From: a virus
Length of the DNA: 31,171 nt
Virus record (IMG/VR): IMGVR_UViG_3300046524_000590
Span: 1 to 31,171 of that record
Reading direction: 5' to 3' (one strand)
Position numbers and translations under genes: made by a program. The notes under the pieces were generated by a model. It worked only from the letters and a program-made list of their open reading frames with translations. It did not search any database and had not been told where the DNA came from. Positions 1 to 31,171 of the stretch are shown in pieces (position 1 is the first letter of the stretch; each line of letters begins with the position of its first letter).

Positions 1-471
1 CTAACCTTTCACCGCGGCCACGCGACTGAGGCTATTGCTCCACAACACCGCCACGGCCGGCGCTTCCTCTTCGAGCGCTTGCAATCGATCGTACCACGGC
101 CCGATGTCCTGCGCGGCGGGCGAAAACCCTTCAAACTGCAAGCGCGCGGCGATCCAGCGCGCGCGCAAGCTTTCCAGCTCGGTCCAGATCATCCCGACGA
201 CTCCGCTGGCCCGCGGTTCTCGCTGACAGACGTTGATCCGTCCCGTTTCGATCGTTTCCCAAACGAGCGCTCCGATTTCGTCGGCGATCAGCCGGTCGAT
301 CGAGGGACACCGGGTACACCAGTCACGCAACCTCTCGCCGATCGGGATCAGGGCGTGCGCGGCATCGATCAACACGCCGACCGCCGGGTCACGCGTCCAG
401 CAGTCGACCGCGAGCAGACGTGCGCTTTCGGGATGGAGGTCGGGCGAGGGCTGAACAGCGGCAGGCGGCAA
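1..471 (-). CDS. Hypothetical protein, first gene of the leftward repressor-controlled transcript
   Basis: I do not recognise this protein of about 156 residues. It is soluble-looking, with no signal peptide or membrane segment, and is rich in Trp, Ala, Arg and Glu with helical stretches such as LIDAAHALIPIGERLRDW. The frame stays open upstream to a TTG at 534, but that TTG is part of the -35 box of a likely promoter with an operator downstream. I therefore place the start at the TTG at 471, which has GGGAG six bases upstream. The stop is at the very left edge of the window. Its divergent position opposite the rightward early genes, under the same operator type, suggests an early or lysogeny-linked phage function, but that is inference. 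The start is the least certain part. Confidence 0.6.
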   Translation of the reverse strand: MPPAAVQPSPDLHPESARLLAVDCWTRDPAVGVLIDAAHALIPIGERLRDWCTRCPSIDRLIADEIGALVWETIETGRINVCQREPRASGVVGMIWTELESLRARWIAARLQFEGFSPAAQDIGPWYDRLQALEEEAPAVAVLWSNSLSRVAAVKG

Positions 472-505: not shown

Positions 506-534
506 AATATGGGACTAATTGTCCAACTATTCAA
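506..534 (-). promoter_or_regulatory. Leftward promoter with repressor operator in the spacer
   Basis: Read on the minus strand, TTGAAT (534-529) and CATATT (511-506) are separated by 17 bases. The spacer holds the imperfect inverted repeat TTGGACAATTAGTCCCA (526-510), which matches the operator at 989-1005 at 14 of 17 positions. A repressor bound there would occlude RNA polymerase. The promoter call is by consensus only. The repeated architecture at the rightward promoter makes it more credible. Confidence 0.55.
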
Positions 535-595
535 CGTCGCTGATGGCAGCCAGCGCGTTCCGGAATATAGCCTTTAGTGGGACGATCTGGCCAAG

Positions 596-931
596 TCAGC
601 CGCCTTTTCGCAAAGGCTTGCCGTCATTGGCGAACTGAGCAGCGCGCCATTTTTCGATCATGTGCGGACCGGGCACGTCAGGATAGGGTCCCTTCCCTGC
701 CACGCGTCGTCCGGTGAGAAGAAATTCGACCGACACGCCCGTGATCAAGGCAAATTGCTCCATCAACGCATGCGGCATCGGCGTGCGTGATTCGTATTTG
801 CGATAACGTTCGGCCGGTACGCCGAGCAGGGTCGACATCTGTCCGGCCGTCATCCCCCTAAGCTGGCGAAGCGCCTTCACCCTGGCGATATAAAGAGCGT
901 CGAATTCCTCTGGCGTGATCGGATCGGTCAT
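596..931 (-). CDS. XRE-family phage repressor (CI-like), short form
   Basis: This is a DNA-binding protein of about 111 residues with an XRE/Cro-type helix-turn-helix over residues 17-68 (RGMTAGQMSTLLGVPAERYR, then LLTGRR at the end of the domain). It most likely controls the lysogeny decision, since two matching operators flank it at 510-526 and 989-1005. The frame extends upstream to 973, but I chose the ATG at 931 because the HTH is then placed normally near the N-terminus. No Shine-Dalgarno is visible there, and a TTGTTA-16-TACAAT promoter ends six bases before the ATG, so a leaderless mRNA is likely. There is no C-terminal LexA/CI-type peptidase domain, so RecA-stimulated self-cleavage is not expected. 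The tail (PYPDVPGPHMIEKWRAAQF) is of unknown function. A host-type XRE regulator is the alternative. Confidence 0.8.
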   Translation of the reverse strand: MTDPITPEEFDALYIARVKALRQLRGMTAGQMSTLLGVPAERYRKYESRTPMPHALMEQFALITGVSVEFLLTGRRVAGKGPYPDVPGPHMIEKWRAAQFANDGKPLRKGG

Positions 932-937
932 GGACGA

Positions 938-965
938 ATTGTACCATGACCTCGGCTCATAACAA
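938..965 (-). promoter_or_regulatory. Putative leaderless promoter of the repressor gene
   Basis: On the minus strand TTGTTA (965-960) and TACAAT (943-938) are spaced by 16 bases. The repressor ATG at 931 lies six bases after the -10 box, so transcription would begin at or next to the start codon. The strong operator at 989-1005 sits upstream of this -35, a position compatible with self-regulation. This is consensus matching only. Confidence 0.45.
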
Positions 966-980
966 AGCGTCAAGTGACGG

Positions 981-1011
981 TTGATATGTTGGACAATATG
1001 TCCAATTTATT
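981..1011 (+). promoter_or_regulatory. Rightward promoter region with the best operator
   Basis: TTGATA at 981-986 is followed two bases later by the operator TTGGACAATATGTCCAA (989-1005). This is a 7-base inverted repeat (TTGGACA/TGTCCAA) around a 3-base centre. An AT-rich stretch (AATTTATT, 1004-1011) then stands where a -10 box would be, though it is a weak match. The arrangement copies the leftward promoter: TTGAAT or TTGATA, two bases, then the operator. The dyad is certain; the promoter is inferred. Confidence 0.55.
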
Positions 1012-1015
1012 GCCA

Positions 1016-1192
1016 ATGACCAACGCCGCTAGCTCCGAACGCGCCAACGGATCGCCAAAGGACGGACCGCGAACGAGGTGCGCAGCATGCGGACGGGCGC
1101 TCTGCGATCATCCCGATCCGATCTATGGCGGCATTGTGCCCGCATCCCTTCGCCCGCGCCAGCGGCCGAAACGCGAACCGGATAGGCCATAG
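1016..1192 (+). CDS. Small cysteine-rich (zinc-ribbon-like) protein
   Basis: This is a basic protein of about 58 residues with the motif CAACGRALCDH, that is CxxC-x4-CxH, which could bind zinc. The rest is Pro/Arg-rich and probably disordered (RPRQRPKREPDRP at the end). The frame is open further upstream (GTG at 974, ATG at 998), but those starts overlap the operator and promoter. The ATG at 1016 would be at or near a leaderless transcription start. It is first in the rightward transcript, where many phages encode Cro, but it has no HTH, so I do not call it Cro. Function is unknown, and it could be a non-coding stretch. Confidence 0.45.
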   Translation: MTNAASSERANGSPKDGPRTRCAACGRALCDHPDPIYGGIVPASLRPRQRPKREPDRP

Positions 1193-1234: not shown

Positions 1235-1969
1235 TTGGCGGATAGCAATCCGAACATCCGGCGGGCGAGCGCGCGCGCTGAGAGTGGCGCGGAAGACCGG
1301 CTCGCGATGATCCGCGCCAGTGCCGCACGGCGTTTGGCTGCGCTCCCACAACGCGAGCAGCAGTTCGACCCCGTCGATCGTCTGGCCGCCGCGCTGCACC
1401 GGCGCGAGGAGTCGGAACGGCGGCACGAGGCAATGATCGCCCGATGGCGGCACAAGAATGAAGGCACGCCGGAGACGCACGAAAAGGCCAACGCGCTGCC
1501 CGAGCGGCGGCGGCAATCGCCGCTCCACCGGATGGAACGACTGGGCAAGATCAGCGCGGACGAGCGCGCCGCGGCCGAAGAGATCGCCGACGTGGCGGAG
1601 CGAATCCGGCGCGCCGGGTCGATACGGTCGGTGTCACTGGAAACGCGCGTCGATTTCGCCAATTCGGGGCGGGACCAATTGGTCGAGTCACTGAAACGTG
1701 TGCGGCTGGAGGTCGCCTATCGCGCATGGTGCGAGGCGATCCCTCGGCCGAGAGCCATGGTGCTCGACATGGTGTTGAGCGACCGATCGTTCGTGCAACT
1801 GGCACACGCGCATGGGATGCAATGGCGAACGGCGCGCAAGCGGCTGATTACCGCGTTGCGGATGTGGCCCGAAATGGCGGCGACAGCGCGACGGGATGTG
1901 GATCGCGAGGATGTCGAGGCGGTGTACGCGCGGCTGGGCGCGGGAGAACTGCTGGGGTCGCAACAATAG
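1235..1969 (+). CDS. Putative DNA-binding early regulator
   Basis: The protein has 244 residues. The TTG start is supported by AGGAG at 1222-1226, eight bases upstream. The N-terminal 100 residues are highly charged and Arg/Glu/Ala-rich, likely helical or coiled. The C-terminal part has a probable helix-turn-helix (SDRSFVQLAHAHGMQWRTAR, roughly residues 188-207), reminiscent of sigma-region-4 or phage late-regulator folds and preceded by RMERLGKISADERAAAEEIA. It lies in the rightward early transcript under the operator at 989-1005, so an activator of later genes is plausible. I cannot assign a named family with confidence. Nothing in it suggests an enzyme. Confidence 0.65.
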   Translation: MADSNPNIRRASARAESGAEDRLAMIRASAARRLAALPQREQQFDPVDRLAAALHRREESERRHEAMIARWRHKNEGTPETHEKANALPERRRQSPLHRMERLGKISADERAAAEEIADVAERIRRAGSIRSVSLETRVDFANSGRDQLVESLKRVRLEVAYRAWCEAIPRPRAMVLDMVLSDRSFVQLAHAHGMQWRTARKRLITALRMWPEMAATARRDVDREDVEAVYARLGAGELLGSQQ

Positions 1970-2134: not shown

Positions 2135-3652
2135 ATGCGGGCAGTATCATCTACTTATGACGTGCGCGAAGGCGCCGATACGAAGGCGAGCGACCACGCG
2201 ATCGTGATTTGCGGCGGCGGGCCGACCGGACTGATGCTGGCCGGCGAACTGGCGCTGGCGGGGGCCGATGTCGCGATCGTCGAGCGGCGGCCGAACCAGG
2301 AGTTGGCGGGGTCGCGCGCAGGCGGATTGCATGCTCGGTCGATCGAATTGCTCGATCAACGCGGCATTGCCGACCGGTTCCTGGCCGCTGGAGAAGCGAT
2401 GCAGGTCACGGGCTTCGCGCTCACCAGGCTCGACATCAGCGACTTTCCCACCCGGCACAATTACGGGCTGGCTTTGTGGCAGAACCATATCGAGCGCATC
2501 CTGGCCGAATGGGTCGCCGAGCTGGGAGTGCCGACCTATCGCGCGCGCAACGTGATCGGGTTCGTCGAGGATGAAACGGGCGTCGATATAGCACTGTCCG
2601 ACAGGAGTTCGCTGCGGACCGACTATCTGGTCGGATGCGATGGCGGGCGCAGCCTGATCCGCAAGGCGGCGGGGATCGACTTTCCCGGTTGGGATCCCAC
2701 TATCAGCAATCTGATCGCTGAGGTCGAGCTGGAGGAGGAGCCCGACTGGGGCATCCGTCGCGACGCGACCGGGCTGCATGGGCTGAGCCAGATGGACGAC
2801 GGCAAGACGGTGCGCGTCATGATCACCGAGCAGCGGGCGGGGCGTGCCGGCGATCCGGGGCTCAGCGACCTGAGCGAGGGGCTGATCGCGGTTTATGGCA
2901 CCGATTTCGGGGTGCATAATCCGAGCTGGATCTCGCGCTTCAGCGACATGACGAGGCAGGCAGCGACGTATCGCAAGGGCCGGATCTTGCTGGCCGGCGA
3001 TGCCGCGCATGTCCATTCGCCTGATGGGGGCCAAGGCCTCAACATCGGCTTGCACGATGCGGTGAACCTGGGATGGAAATTGGCGCGCGTCGCCGCGGGG
3101 ACGGCGCCCGACAGCCTGCTCGACAGCTATCATGCCGAGCGTCATCCCGTCGCCGCGCGGGTACTGCGCAATACGATGGCGCAAGTCGCCCTGCGGCGCG
3201 CGGACGAGCGCTCCGGCGCGCTGCGCGAGATCGTCGCCGAACTGCTGGGCATGGACGAACCGCGCCGACGAGTGGCGGGGATGATGTCGGGGCTGGATGT
3301 GCAGTACGACCTTGGCGAGGGGCACGCGCTGCTCGGGCGGCGGACGCCCGACCTCAACCTGGTCACCGCCGACGGCCCGGTGCGGGTGTTCTCATTGCTC
3401 CACGATGCGCGACCGGTGCTGATCAATCTGGGCGAGCCGGGCGTAATGGACATCTCGCCCTGGGCGGATTGGGTGACGTTGCTGGATGCCCGTTATGAAG
3501 GGGTCTGGGAGCTGCCGGTGATCGGCGCGGTGCCCTCCCCGACCGCGGTGCTGGTCCGGCCCGACGGTCATGTCTGCTGGGTAGGAGACGGCGATGACGA
3601 CGGGCTGGCCAAAGCGCTAACGACTTGGTTCGGGCCAGCGGCGATAGCGTAG
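2135..3652 (+). CDS. FAD-dependent aromatic hydroxylase (PheA/TfdB or Rox-like monooxygenase)
   Basis: This 505-residue flavoprotein monooxygenase is predicted to use NAD(P)H and O2 to hydroxylate an aromatic or polyketide-like substrate in the cytoplasm. All three group A motifs are visible: the Rossmann GGGPTG (residues 27-32, with acidic E50 ending the second strand), the DG motif (LVGCDGGRSLIRKAAG, about 163-180) and the GD motif (ILLAGDAAHVHSPDGGQG, about 284-301). The last 100 residues match the thioredoxin-like tail of phenol hydroxylase-type enzymes. The ATG at 2135 follows a strong AGGGAGAGG. An earlier ATG at 2072 lies in a hairpin and lacks a ribosome site. It sits between phage regulators and the terminase, so it is either cargo or a host gene captured at a module boundary. 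The substrate cannot be told from sequence; related enzymes include rifampicin monooxygenase. Confidence 0.9.
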   Translation: MRAVSSTYDVREGADTKASDHAIVICGGGPTGLMLAGELALAGADVAIVERRPNQELAGSRAGGLHARSIELLDQRGIADRFLAAGEAMQVTGFALTRLDISDFPTRHNYGLALWQNHIERILAEWVAELGVPTYRARNVIGFVEDETGVDIALSDRSSLRTDYLVGCDGGRSLIRKAAGIDFPGWDPTISNLIAEVELEEEPDWGIRRDATGLHGLSQMDDGKTVRVMITEQRAGRAGDPGLSDLSEGLIAVYGTDFGVHNPSWISRFSDMTRQAATYRKGRILLAGDAAHVHSPDGGQGLNIGLHDAVNLGWKLARVAAGTAPDSLLDSYHAERHPVAARVLRNTMAQVALRRADERSGALREIVAELLGMDEPRRRVAGMMSGLDVQYDLGEGHALLGRRTPDLNLVTADGPVRVFSLLHDARPVLINLGEPGVMDISPWADWVTLLDARYEGVWELPVIGAVPSPTAVLVRPDGHVCWVGDGDDDGLAKALTTWFGPAAIA

Positions 3653-3725: not shown

Positions 3726-3753
3726 TTGACTGCCACGAAAAAACGTGTATGTA
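3726..3753 (+). promoter_or_regulatory. Putative late-operon promoter
   Basis: TTGACT (3726-3731) and TATGTA (3748-3753) are spaced by 16 bases, in an unusually AT-rich stretch of this GC-rich window. It is the best sigma-70-like promoter seen upstream of the terminase genes and is preceded by the LexA-like box. A leader of about 150 bases would contain the inverted-repeat cluster at 3836-3873. Confidence 0.5.
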
Positions 3754-15052: not shown

Positions 15053-15363
15053 TCACCGCTGGAATCGAGGGCGGGTCGAAGGCCGCGATCGAACGCGATT
15101 GGGGCCTGACCGATGTCGATGCCCAATATCAGAGCTGGCGACGTACCGGCCCGCCACTCAACATTGCTGCAGTCGCGATTGCGCGAGCGTTGGGAGTCGA
15201 TCTGATTCCCAGCAAGGACCGTAGCTCGGCCGAGACGCGGGAACTCTCGCCGACGCAGCCGACGCTCTCACGGCTTTCCGCCGAGGTCGCGATGCCCGTC
15301 GCCGGCGGCGACACCGCGGCGGCATCACGCGCGATACTCCAGAGACTGAAGGACATGTCATGA
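14678..15363 (+). CDS. Tail assembly chaperone, frameshifted long form (GT-type)
   Basis: From the G-run at 14974-14978 the -1 frame is open to TGA at 15361-15363 and reads as a normal protein domain (LEHGLAELVHDLITAGIEGG, KAAIERDWGLTDVDAQYQSW, PPLNIAAVAIARALGV). This part has no ATG or GTG start of its own until near the end. The ribosome must therefore slip back one base, giving about 228 residues: 100 from G, then 128. The zero-frame codons at the slip are AAG GGG GAA, where the Gly tRNA can re-pair on GGG. G/GT pairs made this way are a conserved feature of long-tailed phages. The stop overlaps the tape-measure start (ATGA). Confidence 0.82.
14974..14978 (+). other. Programmed -1 ribosomal frameshift site
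   Basis: Five consecutive G in CAAGGGGGAAG are read in the zero frame as AAG GGG GAA and in the -1 frame as CAA GGG GGA. The exact slip codon is inferred. It differs from the lambda heptamer GGGAAAG, so single-tRNA (P-site) slippage on the G-run is the likely mechanism. Confidence 0.65.
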
Positions 15364-18300
15364 GCGATACCGTCTCCATCCGGATCACGGCCGACACATC
15401 CGGAGTGGAGGCGGGCATCCAACAGGTCCGTGGCGATCTGGGCGAGTTGAAGAGCACAGTCCAGGCCGCCGCGGACAGCATGAGCGGAGGCTTCGCCGGG
15501 ATGCGCGGCGCGGTAGAACGCAGTGCTCAGTCGATGGATGCGCTGACCGCCAGCATGCACGGATTGAGGCCGCAGGAAATCGTCAGCGGCCTGAACGAAG
15601 TGACCGCCGCGCTGAGGCACAACAGCGCGGCGCTGCAGGAAATGGCCACCAAGTCCGGCGAGGGCAAAAGCGGTTTCGGCAAGCTGGTCGAAGGGATCAA
15701 GGGCGCGGCGGGCGTTGCCGGCGAACTGTATGAAGCAGGCAAGCAAGCCGCCCAGGCCATCGTGGCGATGGGGGAATCGTCCGAGAAGGTCAGCGTGCTG
15801 TCGAAGCAACTCGGAATGTCGACGCACCAAGTTCAACAATTGCAGGCAATGGCGCAGGCGACCGGAACCGACTTCACCAAATTGTCGCAGAGCACGGCCG
15901 CGCTGGACAAGAATTTCAGCAAGAGCCCCGACACGTTCAAGAAACTCGGCATCGATATCAAGGCGGGGTCGGATCAGATGACGATCCTGACCACCGTGGC
16001 CGACAAGTTCGCCAAGACCACCGATGGTCCGCAAAAAACCGCGATGGCAATCAAGCTGATGGGCCAGGCTGGCGCCGAAGCGATCCCGTTCCTGAACCAG
16101 GGCGGCGCGGCGATCAGCACGCTTGCGCAGAAGACCGATGCCTATGGGGCCGCTAACGACGGTGCGGTCGCCAGCGGTACGAAATTGGGAGAGTCGGTCA
16201 ACGAGGCGCAGATCGCCTGGACCGGCGTCACCCAAACCTTGACCGCGGCACTCGCGCCGGTGGCGACCGAGATCGTCCACCGCTTCAACGAGCTCGCTAA
16301 GGCTTTCACGCAGAGCTATGCCAGCGGCGGCCTGGTCAAAACGATTTTCGACCTGTTGAGCGGTGCGATCGAGGGCGTCGGCGAGATCATCAACACGCTC
16401 GGCACAGCCTTTGCGGACCTTTGGCAGATCAGCGGCGCCGGTGGGCTGAACTGGTCTGAAATCCAGCATAATGTGATGAACGTCGTGATCACCGCGATCA
16501 AGACAGTGGTCGCCGCGGTCGTCGCGCTCGCGATCGGTTTCAAGATCGAGTTCGACCTGATCGCCGGCTATGCGCTCGACTGGTGGGGCAAGTTGAAGGA
16601 GGCGTTCGACTTCGCCGGGTTGGGCATCGAGGCCATCAAGAAGACGTTCCAGCTGTTCGGCCAGGTGGCCTATGATGCACTGACGCTGCACTGGAACTCG
16701 ATCGCCTCCGACTGGGACAAGGGGCTTGCGGACATCGACGCCACCGTCCGCCGCCGCGGCGCCCAGATCGTCGGCGATGCCAAGAAAACGAGCGAACAGG
16801 CGCAAGGCTATCTCCGTGCGGCCAATGATCTGCAGAATAACGCGCCCGGAATGCTCGCCGGCGTTCTAAACAAGACACCGCCACCGCCGCCGAGCGGCGT
16901 GACCAAGCCGACTCCTTCTCCAACGCCGTCACCGACGCCGGCGCCCAGTCCGGGTCACGGCAATGCCGGTGGCGGCGCAGCGAAGCCGCAAAGCCGGATG
17001 AATGAATGGCAAGCGGTGCTCGACGAAAAGAAGCTGGCCATCCAGGCCGAAGCCGATGCCGAGCGCAAGTTCCGCCAGATGTCGCTTCAGGACGAGAATG
17101 CCTATTGGGTGAACATCCTCGCCACCGTGAAGATGTCGAAAGACGAGGAGGTCGCAGTCAAGCGCAAGGCGACTGAAACCGGCATCGCCATGCATGAGGA
17201 GGAATTTCAATCCGAGGTCGATAAGCTTCGAAATAAGCTCGATCTCGCGCATGGCAACCTTGCCGAAGAGACGAAAATAGGCAAAGCGATCGTCGACGCG
17301 ACCAAGGAACATTATGGCGAGGAATCGAAGCAGGCTAAGGATACCGAACGACAGATCACCGAGTATCTGCGCCGCGAAGCCGATGAACGCCGACGCATTC
17401 AAGATGACTATTTCAAGCACATTGCCGACATGCGGCTTAGCGATATCGACGACGCTCAGGCCCAAGCCGAATATCTCAACCAGATGGGCGCGCTGAGCGA
17501 CGCTCAGCTCCTTCAGCAACAGAAGAAGTTCGAAAACGATCGGTTCCAGATCGACAGCGACGAACTGATCCGTAAACTCAACCAGCTCAAAGCCGACCCG
17601 ACGAATCCCGATGCGATCAAGGCCCAGGATGCCAAGATCGAACAGCTCGCGAAGCAGCATCAATTGCGCCTTAACGACATCAGCCGAAAGGCCAGTCTCC
17701 AGCGCAGTCAGATCGAACGCCAAGCTATCAATCAGATCGCGTCCGGCTGGAGCCAGAACATCGCAAAGATGCTCACGCTGCAGCAGGGGTTCGCCGCAAC
17801 GGTTAAGGGCCTTTGGCAGACAGTGCAGCAGGCGATTGGCGACGCCATCGCAAAGATCATTGAGCAATGGCTTGCCAAGGAGCTGACGGCACTCGCGATC
17901 AAGCTCGGCATCCTGAAAACCGACGGCCAAAGCACGATCACTACCGAGGCCGCGAAGGCCGGTGCAGGCGGCACGGCGTCGATGGCGGCCGCGCCATTCC
18001 CATGGAATTTGAGCGCGCCGGGGTTCGGTGCGGCTATGTCTGCCGCAGCGGCATCGTACGGGACGATGGCCGGGTTCGATGTTGGCGCCTACGACCTGAG
18101 CAGGGACGGCATCGGCATGCTGCACAAGGGAGAAACGATCATCCCCGCCGATCAGGCCGGCGGATGGCGGAATGTCATGGGGCTATTCGCGTCGATGCCG
18201 ACTTTCGGTGTCCCGTCAGTCGGATTCGCGGCCGGCGCGAACAGCAATGCCCCTTTTGCCGCGAACGACCAAGCCGGTGCGTCAGGTGGCTATCATTACC

Positions 18301-18419
18301 ACGACCACACCGCGAGCGGCCTGTCCGAAGCGCAGATCATCGCCAACCGAAACGCCTTCGCCAAGGCCATGAAGATGGCTCACCGCGAAGGCAAGCTGGG
18401 TTTCTCGCTGCAGCGCTAG
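15360..18419 (+). CDS. Tape measure protein
   Basis: At 1019 residues this is the largest protein in the window, as expected for the ruler that sets tail length and later aids DNA passage. The N-terminus (SIRITADTSGVEAGIQQVRG) and long coiled-coil helices (about 15-130 and 540-800) are typical. A hydrophobic stretch (TVVAAVVALAIGF, near residues 380-395) may insert in the host membrane. A Pro/Thr/Ser linker lies around 503-535. The C-terminus carries GMLHKGETIIPADQAGG, a motif common at tape-measure ends. It overlaps the GT stop by four bases, and its TAG interlocks with the stop of the converging minus-strand gene inside GCTAGC. Confidence 0.93.
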   Translation: MSDTVSIRITADTSGVEAGIQQVRGDLGELKSTVQAAADSMSGGFAGMRGAVERSAQSMDALTASMHGLRPQEIVSGLNEVTAALRHNSAALQEMATKSGEGKSGFGKLVEGIKGAAGVAGELYEAGKQAAQAIVAMGESSEKVSVLSKQLGMSTHQVQQLQAMAQATGTDFTKLSQSTAALDKNFSKSPDTFKKLGIDIKAGSDQMTILTTVADKFAKTTDGPQKTAMAIKLMGQAGAEAIPFLNQGGAAISTLAQKTDAYGAANDGAVASGTKLGESVNEAQIAWTGVTQTLTAALAPVATEIVHRFNELAKAFTQSYASGGLVKTIFDLLSGAIEGVGEIINTLGTAFADLWQISGAGGLNWSEIQHNVMNVVITAIKTVVAAVVALAIGFKIEFDLIAGYALDWWGKLKEAFDFAGLGIEAIKKTFQLFGQVAYDALTLHWNSIASDWDKGLADIDATVRRRGAQIVGDAKKTSEQAQGYLRAANDLQNNAPGMLAGVLNKTPPPPPSGVTKPTPSPTPSPTPAPSPGHGNAGGGAAKPQSRMNEWQAVLDEKKLAIQAEADAERKFRQMSLQDENAYWVNILATVKMSKDEEVAVKRKATETGIAMHEEEFQSEVDKLRNKLDLAHGNLAEETKIGKAIVDATKEHYGEESKQAKDTERQITEYLRREADERRRIQDDYFKHIADMRLSDIDDAQAQAEYLNQMGALSDAQLLQQQKKFENDRFQIDSDELIRKLNQLKADPTNPDAIKAQDAKIEQLAKQHQLRLNDISRKASLQRSQIERQAINQIASGWSQNIAKMLTLQQGFAATVKGLWQTVQQAIGDAIAKIIEQWLAKELTALAIKLGILKTDGQSTITTEAAKAGAGGTASMAAAPFPWNLSAPGFGAAMSAAAASYGTMAGFDVGAYDLSRDGIGMLHKGETIIPADQAGGWRNVMGLFASMPTFGVPSVGFAAGANSNAPFAANDQAGASGGYHYHDHTASGLSEAQIIANRNAFAKAMKMAHREGKLGFSLQR

Positions 18420-26635: not shown

Positions 26636-27579
26636 GAGTTGCTATTCCCTTCGCCGGCGTCGATGCGTCTGCGCTTGGCTATGGCCGCACGCGGTCCTGT
26701 CCGAACTTCGGCGCCGGCTATGCTGCCTACATGTTCGGCACCTCGCTCAACGACTCGCCAACGGTCAACCTATTCACTGGCGCCAACGATGGACGGCTGA
26801 TCGGTACGCCAGCGGCTGTCGGCTTGGTCGGCGGTCCGATGGCTACCACCTTCAGCGGGGCGATCACGGGCGGCAACCTGCTGACGGTCACCGGCTCCGT
26901 GACCGGCGACCCCCTCGCGGTCGGCCAAACGATTGAGTTGACCACTGGCGTGGGCGGAAGTCTGGGCGTCATCTCGTCGCTTGCGACCGGAACCGGCGGC
27001 GCTGGCACGTATAATCTCACTGGCGGCGTCAACACCTCGTCACAATCGATGCGCGCCTTCACCCGCTTTTTCGAGTTGCCGGGATTCGCGCGCGACATCT
27101 TCAACCTTGGCAGCGCACTTACCTTGCTCGCCGTCTACAAATCCGCGATCAATCAAGGCATCCTGTCGGACGACATCAATGGCGGCTCATTGGGCATGCT
27201 GGTGCCCGGCTTGTTTGAGGTCCAAACCTTCGGTCGCGACAGCGTTGGCACGGTGGTCAACGTCTCCACCAGTTCAGGTTTCGCCAATGGCGCCACGACC
27301 TGGAGCATGGGCGTATCGGAGTATAACACAACCACCGCCCAAGGTTTCTTCCAACGGTCTGGATCGGCCCGTAGTGCTTCGGTATTCGCGACCACACGAA
27401 CCGCCAACCCGATGGGCAGCACCACGCGCAAGCTACGGACGCACCTCTATACCACTACAACACCCGGCGCGACGATTGCAGGGATCGCGATCTATACCAA
27501 GATGCTGTCGAGCGCGGAGTTGGACGACGCATTTAGTTACTGGCGCGACATTCTGTCCGATGCTGGCGAGGTGTTGTAG
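26632..27579 (+). CDS. Fibre-associated protein, LamG-like fold
   Basis: The 315-residue protein starts at an ATG overlapping the tailspike stop, so the two are co-translated and perhaps form one receptor-binding complex. The ends fit a concanavalin/LamG-like beta sandwich, closing with AGIAIYTKMLSSAELDDAFS, a pattern frequent in phage fibres. Residues about 80-140 (TFSGAITGGNLLTVTGSVTG, then GTGGAGTYNLTG) match a short module that recurs as an insert in many phage virion proteins. It overlaps the converging methyltransferase gene by 43 bases, suggesting that cargo was inserted right against its end. Confidence 0.78.
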   Translation: MRVAIPFAGVDASALGYGRTRSCPNFGAGYAAYMFGTSLNDSPTVNLFTGANDGRLIGTPAAVGLVGGPMATTFSGAITGGNLLTVTGSVTGDPLAVGQTIELTTGVGGSLGVISSLATGTGGAGTYNLTGGVNTSSQSMRAFTRFFELPGFARDIFNLGSALTLLAVYKSAINQGILSDDINGGSLGMLVPGLFEVQTFGRDSVGTVVNVSTSSGFANGATTWSMGVSEYNTTTAQGFFQRSGSARSASVFATTRTANPMGSTTRKLRTHLYTTTTPGATIAGIAIYTKMLSSAELDDAFSYWRDILSDAGEVL

Positions 27580-28394
27580 CCCTCGGGGATGACAAGGTAA
27601 TCCCCGACCGGCAAGCGCTCGGATTTGTGTTCGACAAGGACCGTCCGATTGAAGAGCGCGCCCTTTTTGCTCGTATACAGCATCAATCGAAATGGGACCG
27701 GAATCAGTTCCGCAAGCGCGGAGGTGGTCGGCGTGTGAAGAGTGGTCTCGCTGATCTCGACCCAAATTAGAGGACGGTTAGCGATGATCGTCTCACGAAG
27801 TCCGCGGAGCACGTTCGGCTCGAACCCCTGGACGTCGATCTTGATTGCGTCGATGGCTACGCCGCGCAATTCTTCATCGCCGACAGCAATGTGCGCGCTG
27901 AGGCCATGAGCGTTGTCCAATTCTCCATCGAGAAAGGTAGACAGGCCGTGGTTGTCATTGACGAAGATTGGTAAGTCGGCAACCGCGTCCCCCAATCCGA
28001 CCTTGCGCAATTCAACCTTCGCCCAAGGGTTGATCGCGATATTCTGCTCGACCCGCGGCCAGACCTGTGGATTTGGCTCGAACGAGATCACGCTATTGAA
28101 GTGGCGGGCGAACGCTAGCGCGTGGTTCCCGATGTTTGCGCCGACGTCAGCGATCGTCCCGCGCCGGCTCGCCCGGGCGAGAAAGGGTGCGATTTTGTGC
28201 CAGTCGTATGAACCGTAGAGATAGGCCTCGCGGTCGATCAACGACTTCAGATTGCCTGCGAAGCGGACCTCACCCCGCCGACATTCGAACTCGGCGTCAT
28301 GCTTCGCAAGTCTAGTGGCGATCGCTGGCCAGCCACGAACGTGGCGCATGAAACTGAGGGATTTGGCGAGCTTGGCAGAAAGCGGCACTGTCAT
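27537..28394 (-). CDS. FkbM-family methyltransferase
   Basis: The protein has 285 residues with the SAM-binding motif DVGANIGNHALAFARHF (about 100-116), the acidic ribose ligand in FEPNPQVWPRVEQN, and the FkbM signature IDAIKIDVQGFEPNVLRGL. This family methylates hydroxyl groups, often on sugars of surface polysaccharides. No clear ribosome site precedes the ATG at 28394; the gene lies 50 bases after the acyltransferase in the same direction, so one mRNA is likely. It is antisense to the late operon. Together with the acyltransferase it suggests surface modification of the lysogen. The exact substrate cannot be read from sequence. Confidence 0.88.
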   Translation of the reverse strand: MTVPLSAKLAKSLSFMRHVRGWPAIATRLAKHDAEFECRRGEVRFAGNLKSLIDREAYLYGSYDWHKIAPFLARASRRGTIADVGANIGNHALAFARHFNSVISFEPNPQVWPRVEQNIAINPWAKVELRKVGLGDAVADLPIFVNDNHGLSTFLDGELDNAHGLSAHIAVGDEELRGVAIDAIKIDVQGFEPNVLRGLRETIIANRPLIWVEISETTLHTPTTSALAELIPVPFRLMLYTSKKGALFNRTVLVEHKSERLPVGDYLVIPEGYNTSPASDRMSRQ

Positions 28395-28444
28395 GGCGCG
28401 GTGGTCTATCAGCGCTGCCGCTATTCGGCCAACGAGAATTGCGA

Positions 28445-29572
28445 TCAGAGTGGGCGATCAGCGACTTCCTCGATAACAGATGGCTTCATACGTACACGTG
28501 ATCGGATCCATTCGCGCGCTGGCTCTTCGATGTAGAGGAAGACCACGACGGAACCTCCGACGACTACCAAATACTGTAACGGCACGAGCCATTTACTCTC
28601 GCCCAACAGCCAAGTCATGTAAAAGTGCGCCGGCTGGTGGAGCAGATATAGCGAATAGCTCGCCGCGCCAAGCAGCACGAGCCAACGTTGTTGGAGAACT
28701 CTAGCAACGATCGAGCCATAATCGCCCGCAATGGCCAAGATAAGCAGCGCCGCCAACACCGTCACGGCAGACGCTACCCATGGCTCGTGCGATATGCATA
28801 GCATCAACAAAAGCACGGCGATCGGCACCCACGACGGCACGGGAAAACGCTTCCCATCACGCCTGAAATGCAACTCGCCGACCAGCACCCCGATCACGAA
28901 TTCAGGCAACCGGATGATCGGCGTCGGTACCCATCGGAGCCATTCGAAATATGCCGGATGCAGCGAGAAGAACGCCGAACTGCCGGTTGTGAAGTCCAGA
29001 ACCGCTAGGGCCAGAAGGGCTATATAGATCGACCGCGTTGACAGCTTAGTCGCGACGGTCGTGAGCCAGGGAAACCAAAAGTAGAAAAACGCCTCTACCG
29101 AGATCGTCCACGACGGCCCGTTCCAGATGGCGAGAAGCGGCCATGGCGCTGTGATCCACCAATGCAAAAGCAAGAATTGCGGCACATCGCGCCAGTCGTA
29201 GTTCACGCCTGCAAACGGGAACATCACGATCACAGTGATTAGGTATACCGGGTAAATGCGAGCAAACCGAGCAACGGCGAATCGTTTGATATTTTCCCGG
29301 TCGACTAGCTTGCAGCGGTAGGTGTGGTGCAGAATGAAGCCGGACAGTACGAAGAAAAACGTGACGCCGGTGTAGCCGTTCAACAGCACTGACTTAATAA
29401 TGCCGGGAATATGCGGCTGTGCGGTGATGAACCCGGAGCCCGAATGATACATCACAACGAAAATTGCTGCGAAGAACCGGATACTGGTTAGTGGCTTGAT
29501 GAGATTGGCGCTAGCGGCGTCCGCTTTCGTTTGACCAGTACACCGTGCCGCTCGATTCGCGCTTTCTGACAT
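28445..29572 (-). CDS. Acyltransferase 3 family membrane protein (OafA-like O-acetylase)
   Basis: This integral membrane protein has about 375 residues and around ten helices. Family marks are LTSIRFFAAIFVVMYHSGSG with the catalytic-type His, TGVTFFFVLSGFILHHTY, the basic RFAVARFARIYPVYLIT, NGPSWTISVEAFFYFWFPWL, and the late ASYSLYLLHQPAHFY. OafA-type enzymes add acetyl groups to O-antigen or capsule, and phage copies cause serotype conversion. I chose the ATG at 29572 (MSESANRAARC); the frame runs upstream to 29614. The stretch is noticeably richer in A and T than the late genes, which fits recent acquisition. The lysis cassette starts on the other strand about 110 bases away. Confidence 0.88.
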   Translation of the reverse strand: MSESANRAARCTGQTKADAASANLIKPLTSIRFFAAIFVVMYHSGSGFITAQPHIPGIIKSVLLNGYTGVTFFFVLSGFILHHTYRCKLVDRENIKRFAVARFARIYPVYLITVIVMFPFAGVNYDWRDVPQFLLLHWWITAPWPLLAIWNGPSWTISVEAFFYFWFPWLTTVATKLSTRSIYIALLALAVLDFTTGSSAFFSLHPAYFEWLRWVPTPIIRLPEFVIGVLVGELHFRRDGKRFPVPSWVPIAVLLLMLCISHEPWVASAVTVLAALLILAIAGDYGSIVARVLQQRWLVLLGAASYSLYLLHQPAHFYMTWLLGESKWLVPLQYLVVVGGSVVVFLYIEEPAREWIRSRVRMKPSVIEEVADRPL

Positions 29573-29684
29573 GTCGACGCGGTATCCGCTTCGACAGCCG
29601 GGGGAAAGCACCACCCGACAATGCCGAGCTCACTTAGATTGACCTCAAACACCTCCACGCCCCTTCCCAATGAGAGTACCCCCA

Positions 29685-30513: not shown

Positions 30514-31171
30514 AGGGGTCGACAGCTTCGTTGAGAGCGACGCGGCGGCGCGTGCCGGCTGGGCCAGCACGGGCGCCATCGCCGCGGCCGTCGCGGTCAT
30601 CCTTGCCGGCGTCTATGCCGTCGAGGGCGGCTATGTGAACGACGCCCGCGATCCGGGCGGCGCAACGAGCTACGGCGTCACCGAACAAGTCGCTCGCGAC
30701 TATGGGTATCGCGGTGACATGCGCCGGTTCCCGCAGCATTGCGACGGCCCCGCGACCATTTGCGCCGATGCCGTCTATGTGCGGAGCTATATCGCCGCGC
30801 CTGGCTATATGCCGCTGGTCGAGATCGACCCCGCCGTTGCCGGCGAGTTGATCGACACCGCGGTCAATATGGGGCCGCGGCGACCCAATCGCTGGTACCG
30901 GCTGACGATGAACGCGCTGGGTCACGCGCGCCTGCCGGACAGTGCGGCGTCGTTGGGGCCCGTCGACGTCGCGGCATATCGGATGCTCCAGACAAAGCTC
31001 GGCGTCATCCCTGCTTGCGCCGCGACACTCGACGCGCTCGATGCCCGGCAAGCTGCGGAATATCGTCGGCTTGCCGCCGCCAACCCAAAGCTCCGCGCCT
31101 TTCTCAAGGGGTGGCTGCGGAACCGGATCGGCAATGTCGATCGCCGATCCTGCGGCAAGGGAGAGAGCTGA
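30506..31171 (+). CDS. Endolysin, GH108-type muramidase with N-terminal membrane segment
   Basis: The 221-residue enzyme should cleave the glycan strand of peptidoglycan at the end of infection. The GH108 signature EGGYVNDARDPGGATSYGVT carries the catalytic Glu40. Further family parts are VAGELIDTAVNMGPRRPNRW and the C-terminal peptidoglycan-binding-like LRAFLKGWLRNRI. The segment GAIAAAVAVILAGVYAV (23-39) directly before Glu40 is hydrophobic and weakly so (Ala/Gly-rich), as in signal-arrest-release endolysins. Five cysteines (for example CDGPATIC) may form disulphides after export. AAGAAGG precedes the ATG inside the holin gene. The TGA is the last codon of the window. Confidence 0.9.
   Translation: MAEGVDSFVESDAAARAGWASTGAIAAAVAVILAGVYAVEGGYVNDARDPGGATSYGVTEQVARDYGYRGDMRRFPQHCDGPATICADAVYVRSYIAAPGYMPLVEIDPAVAGELIDTAVNMGPRRPNRWYRLTMNALGHARLPDSAASLGPVDVAAYRMLQTKLGVIPACAATLDALDARQAAEYRRLAAANPKLRAFLKGWLRNRIGNVDRRSCGKGES

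Follow-up and report, generated by a model that had tools for sequence, protein, structure and literature searches.

The window analysed here, an entire IMG/VR virus record of 31,171 bases, carries siphophage-type head, tail and lysis genes, with a control region at its left end in which a short leftward repressor gene is surrounded by palindromic sites and outward promoters (Table 1). Close relatives of this repressor locus were found in 13 viral contigs and four Sphingomonas genomes (a pasture MAG, S. pruni, S. asaccharolytica and S. mali), and these 17 relatives together with the window make up the 18 aligned close loci used below. The structural model of the repressor (mean pLDDT 86) best matched XRE/cI-type DNA-binding domains such as those of SinR, 434 and P22 c2, with no Foldseek E-value below 0.001, and the protein narrowly missed Pfam HTH_3 (22.6 vs the cut-off of 23 bits). 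Its best family match was PHROG 2328, transcriptional repressors (E 2e-7; only 68 residues matched), which is also the best family match of the repressor relative at locus L017. Comparison of codons 1-90 with those of 10 of the 17 relatives gave dN/dS values of 0 to 0.05, indicating strong constraint, and the ERYRKYE residues, invariant in alignment A3 (15 rows), fall within the helix-turn-helix (HTH) of the model.

Table 1. Features of the control region and of the promoter before terS in the window; conservation refers to the 18 aligned close loci
Feature	Coordinates	Strand	Description	Conservation
Leftward gene	1..471	-	156 aa, corrected start TTG 471-469; no family match	
PL, leftward promoter	506..534	-	TTGAAT-17-CATATT, with OD in the spacer	TTGAA in 18/18 rows
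OD	510..526	-	dyad in leftward promoter spacer	15/17 columns invariant
OC	578..594		imperfect dyad just behind repressor stop codon	11/17 columns invariant
Repressor gene	596..931	-	111 aa, HTH of cI/Cro (XRE) type, without S24 domain	
OB	930..946		imperfect dyad over repressor -10 box and start codon	14/17 columns invariant
Repressor promoter	938..965	-	TTGTTA-16-TACAAT, TG before -10; -10 inside OB	
PR -35-like box	981..986	+	TTGATA	TTG kept in 17/18 rows
OA	989..1005	+	perfect dyad, rightward promoter	identical in 18/18 loci, 17/17 columns invariant
First rightward frame	1016..1192	+	58 aa with CxxC	
244-aa protein gene	1235..1969	+	similarity to sigma region 4 at about residues 153-220; candidate activator of late genes	
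Candidate late promoter before terS	3726..3753	+	TTGACT-GCCACGAAAAAACGTG-TATGTA	pattern in 18/18 loci, at most one mismatch

The preliminary description of this DNA had reported twin dyads around the repressor gene, and these were confirmed in every particular: TTGGACAATATGTCCAA (OA) and, on the minus strand from 526 to 510, TTGGACAATTAGTCCCA (OD) agree at 14 of 17 bases, and each follows, after a gap of two bases, a -35-like box (TTGATA for OA; TTGAAT, 534-529 on the minus strand, for OD). Both of the palindromes described there are real, but the count was incomplete, since OB and OC are also conserved in the 18 loci. OB shares two of its bases with the repressor start codon, and OC is degenerate in L015. 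The four sites appear in the alignment as conserved islands, all far above the background of the same 18 loci (where 1 of the 41 fourfold-degenerate positions of the repressor gene is invariant, as are 16 of the 131 remaining non-coding columns), although these loci share kinship, so that columns are not independent and the counts are to be read as contrasts rather than as probabilities. Within the window, the pattern TTGGAC-N5-GTCCAA at 11 or more of 12 matches was found twice against 0.03 expected from 30 dinucleotide shuffles; a looser pattern (up to two mismatches) gave 13 matches against 6.0 expected, and loose matches alone are therefore little proof. At the level of sequence, conservation across loci is the stronger evidence for the sites than match counts in the window, and OA, OB, OC and OD are likely docking sites, at least four in all, of a small phage repressor around its own gene. 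Inverted repeats of this kind might instead act as RNA hairpins or terminators, a reading that we consider highly improbable because OA and OD occupy the spacers between -35 and -10 boxes and hence fall mostly upstream of the expected starts, because both variable columns of OD lie near its centre while the arms are kept, and because no Rfam match was obtained.

These observations were further strengthened by more distant repressor relatives, which are 37-49% identical over the alignment (six rows), with best segments reaching 59%, and whose genes are flanked by the same TTGGAC-N5-GTCCAA sites; two of them belong to genomes titled Betaproteobacteria and Methylocystis. Across 11 non-redundant distant loci (L019 was left out as a near copy of L018), 25 sites with at least 10 of 12 matches lay near the repressor, in the interval from -320 to +620 relative to the ERYRKYE codons, vs 0.245 expected, and 3 such sites were found in the 53.5 kb elsewhere in these loci. 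An upstream site is present in 9 of the 11 and stands 191-196 bases before the ERYRKYE codons in 7 of the 11, the corresponding distance for OA in the window being 194. Of the 9 loci with an upstream site, 8 have a TTGACA-like box (5 or 6 of 6 bases) 1-3 bases ahead of it, and for the downstream site such a box is present in 5 of 7; the chance of such a box at that spacing is 0.013 per site. Downstream sites occur as pairs 23-24 bases apart in six distant loci, and the operators of the window are more widely spaced (59 bases between OA and OB, 68 between OC and OD). In two of the 11 loci, L020 and L087, the surroundings of the repressor contain no site, and in L018 a second set lies about 1.7 kb downstream. 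Opposite the repressor, L016, L017, L018, L025 and L026 carry a small HTH-like frame whose family matches are weak (L017 matched P22_Cro below the cut-off, and L025 matched nothing). Weak repressor relatives in other genomes matched in 3 of 298 cases (two already in the set) and in 9 of 295 (four already in the set). L061 and L064-L068 were rejected as family members and stand outside the 11 loci, having neither an exact TTGGAC-N5-GTCCAA dyad nor ERYRKYE with up to two changes.

The preliminary description had also proposed looking for a third copy of the dyad, and this search, carried through the relatives and the host genomes, recovered exact OA and OD sites in each of the four Sphingomonas genomes and three further places in total, spread over two of them. 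Such outside copies would be expected if the dyads served a host regulator exploited by the prophage, with the neighbouring HTH protein binding elsewhere. We regard this as improbable, given that the sites travel with the repressor family through Betaproteobacteria-, Methylocystis- and Sphingomonas-titled loci and viral contigs, that the upstream site mostly keeps a fixed distance from the repressor gene, and that further copies are nearly absent from the four hosts. One of the three outside sites, a perfect TTGGACAATTCGTCCAA dyad, is at position 3033 of L091 (G004:C18; C18:32532), within a short frame.

The promoters and gene starts were examined alongside the sites. Only two sites passed a consensus scan of positions 400-2200, one of them being the repressor promoter, and the repressor mRNA is probably leaderless because the ATG begins 7 nt after the -10 box. 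PR has a weak -10 (around 1004-1010) and fails the scan, and ATG 1016 sits where its transcript would begin. The rightward frame (GTG 974) also opens upstream of its promoter, a point that the preliminary description missed, and ATG 1016 is the likelier start. The 58-residue product of this frame gave no match in Pfam or PHROGs and no HTH match, and the frame was not found in L006, L013 and L015. On the left, the proposal that the longest frame starts inside a promoter and needs shortening was borne out, position 534 being the first base of the -35 box. TTG 471, with a GGAG box ahead of it, has as its aligned counterparts an ATG in L015 and a GTG in L014, and the comparison supports TTG 471, rather than 534, as the start of the leftward gene.

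The reading of the 244-residue protein as sigma-region-4-like comes from a Z-scored fold comparison and the BFVD match list. The fold match is modest (best Z 7.9 over 68 residues), with the first twelve rows all being sigma factors or their complexes; a Foldseek search of the PDB with the model returned nothing below E 0.001, and the best viral match in BFVD was a DUF6456 protein at a weak E of 0.18. Homology to DUF6456/GafA was considered and dropped, as PF20057 gave no sequence match against the window or against 12 aligned 244-residue proteins. Between this gene and the terminase gene terS, at 2135-3652, lies a FAD monooxygenase gene (NCBIfam PRK06834, over cut-off), present in 14 of the 17 close loci and absent from L014, L015 and L022.

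The candidate late promoter before terS holds a second kind of dyad, CACG-N6-CGTG (3734-3747), in its spacer. Scanning a viral collection for the terS promoter pattern gave 17 stretches, of which eight were inspected here, the other nine being contigs already among the known relatives. The pattern stands ahead of terS in seven of the eight (L123, L125, L131, L134, L135, L137 and L138). The eighth, L128, matched the pattern and none of the element's proteins; it is probably an unrelated chance match. In the Caulobacter gene transfer agent, as described in PMC11150451, the GafZ element lies between the -10 and -35 of the promoter. By analogy, the CACG-N6-CGTG dyad may be a candidate target of the 244-residue protein, a suggestion we make more tentatively than that of the repressor sites.

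The lambda immunity region consists of cI, OR, OL and cro. The control region of the window resembles it in that the repressor gene is read leftward, with predicted operators at a rightward promoter upstream and a leftward promoter downstream, in having a site over the repressor's own promoter, and in the HTH fold of the cI/434/P22 group. It departs from lambda in that the repressor has 111 residues and lacks a cleavage domain, in that no Cro-like gene was found opposite the repressor, where the 58- and 244-residue proteins are encoded instead, and in that a PF00589 search recognised no integrase in the element; the conserved promoter ahead of terS, with its own spacer dyad, is a further departure. 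The comparative data favour the earlier suggestion that the repressor may shut both outward promoters through operators in their spacers, to which self-control through OB is probably to be added. We therefore read the region as a probable lambda-type immunity region of a Sphingomonas prophage, in which the 111-residue repressor, acting at four sites, would shut PR, PL and, at high level, itself; our confidence in this reading as a whole is roughly 0.8.

In this model the sites, their positions, their conservation and their co-occurrence with the repressor family are observed, and binding, the order of filling and repression are inferred. The repressor, made from its own leftward promoter, would bind the TTGGAC-N5-GTCCAA dyads. 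Occupation of OA would shut PR and keep the genes of the 58-residue and the sigma-region-4-like 244-residue proteins off, while occupation of OD, perhaps helped by OC, would shut PL and the gene for the 156-residue protein. OB, being less perfect, would be filled last and so cap repressor synthesis in an autoregulatory manner. Upon loss of repression, and here the model is more tentative, the 244-residue protein might act at the conserved terS promoter and so activate the genes for head, tail and lysis.

The closest functional parallel that we considered is the RogA-GafYZ system of the Caulobacter gene transfer agent. The two systems share a phage-type repressor ahead of a gene for a sigma-like HTH protein (PMC9632790, PMC11150451) and a dyad in the spacer of a particle-gene promoter (PMC11150451). 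They differ in that RogA is a 213-residue protein with an S24-like domain and GGAA-N4-TTCC repeats in its promoter region (PMC9632790, PMC11150451), and in that the 244-residue protein has no DUF6456 sequence match and only a weak fold match.

The distribution of the element in its hosts fits an old resident prophage. A PF00589 search matched no integrase anywhere in the record or next to the element in host genomes G001 to G004. The element appears to occupy a single host locus in several species: the right-hand host neighbours are shared by G001, G002 and G004, and a tRNA-Ala(CGC) adjoins the element on the left in G002, G003, G004, L003 and L008; at the left of the element in L013, L014 and L021 (G001), no tRNA was found. 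Identity between loci is similar for the element (82-90%) and the flank (83-93%), so that the two have diverged alike. The copies in G002 and G004 are deletion remnants in which the repressor, all four sites, the 244-residue gene and the leftward gene survive, and contig L131, which likewise retains the control region, has also lost the segment lying between terS and the tape measure gene. No empty integration site was seen among 61 relatives sampled, a sample that left out the other carrier species. Past the lysis gene, L055, L057 (from G004) and L058 (from G002), representing three genomes, carry additional short genes, one of which looks spanin-like by eye; because these extra genes lie past the match to position 31171 of the window, the record probably ends slightly short of the element's right end. 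An FkbM methyltransferase gene and a membrane acyltransferase-like gene (by eye) occupy 27540-29614 on the opposite strand, vary between copies and are possible surface-modifying cargo.

A bolder interpretation, which we hold only tentatively and think on balance unlikely, is that the element is a domesticated, host-retained prophage with neither integrase nor Cro, in which a lambda-type switch has been rewired to a single output. The repressor would hold back a sigma-region-4-like activator that fires the packaging and head operon through the spacer dyad, an arrangement reached independently of RogA-GafYZ but working alike. Against domestication, though not against the operator model, stands the reading of the element as a normal, active temperate phage with an integrase that escaped detection or comes from elsewhere, to which we give about an even chance. 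The genes for head, tail and lysis are free of stop codons in G001 and mostly so in G003, the set of cargo genes changes from copy to copy, and the tape measure protein (15360-18416) is 35-65% identical between copies, as under exchange between phages, other structural proteins being mostly 80-99% identical. The lack of a PF00589 match within the record or next to the element, the shared right-hand neighbours and left-hand tRNA, and the parallel divergence of element and flank speak for residence instead, as does the repressor itself, which had no match among 50,697 isolate phage records.

No description of this Sphingomonas element, or of such a switch in the genus, was found in literature searched by title or abstract opening. 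For the repressor family as a whole, the predicted operator consensus is common to loci of several proteobacterial groups, and in the window the repressor, its four sites and the three promoters are open to joint testing. Should the activator step prove true, the element would provide a second case of a prophage switch converted to control particle genes in one direction only.
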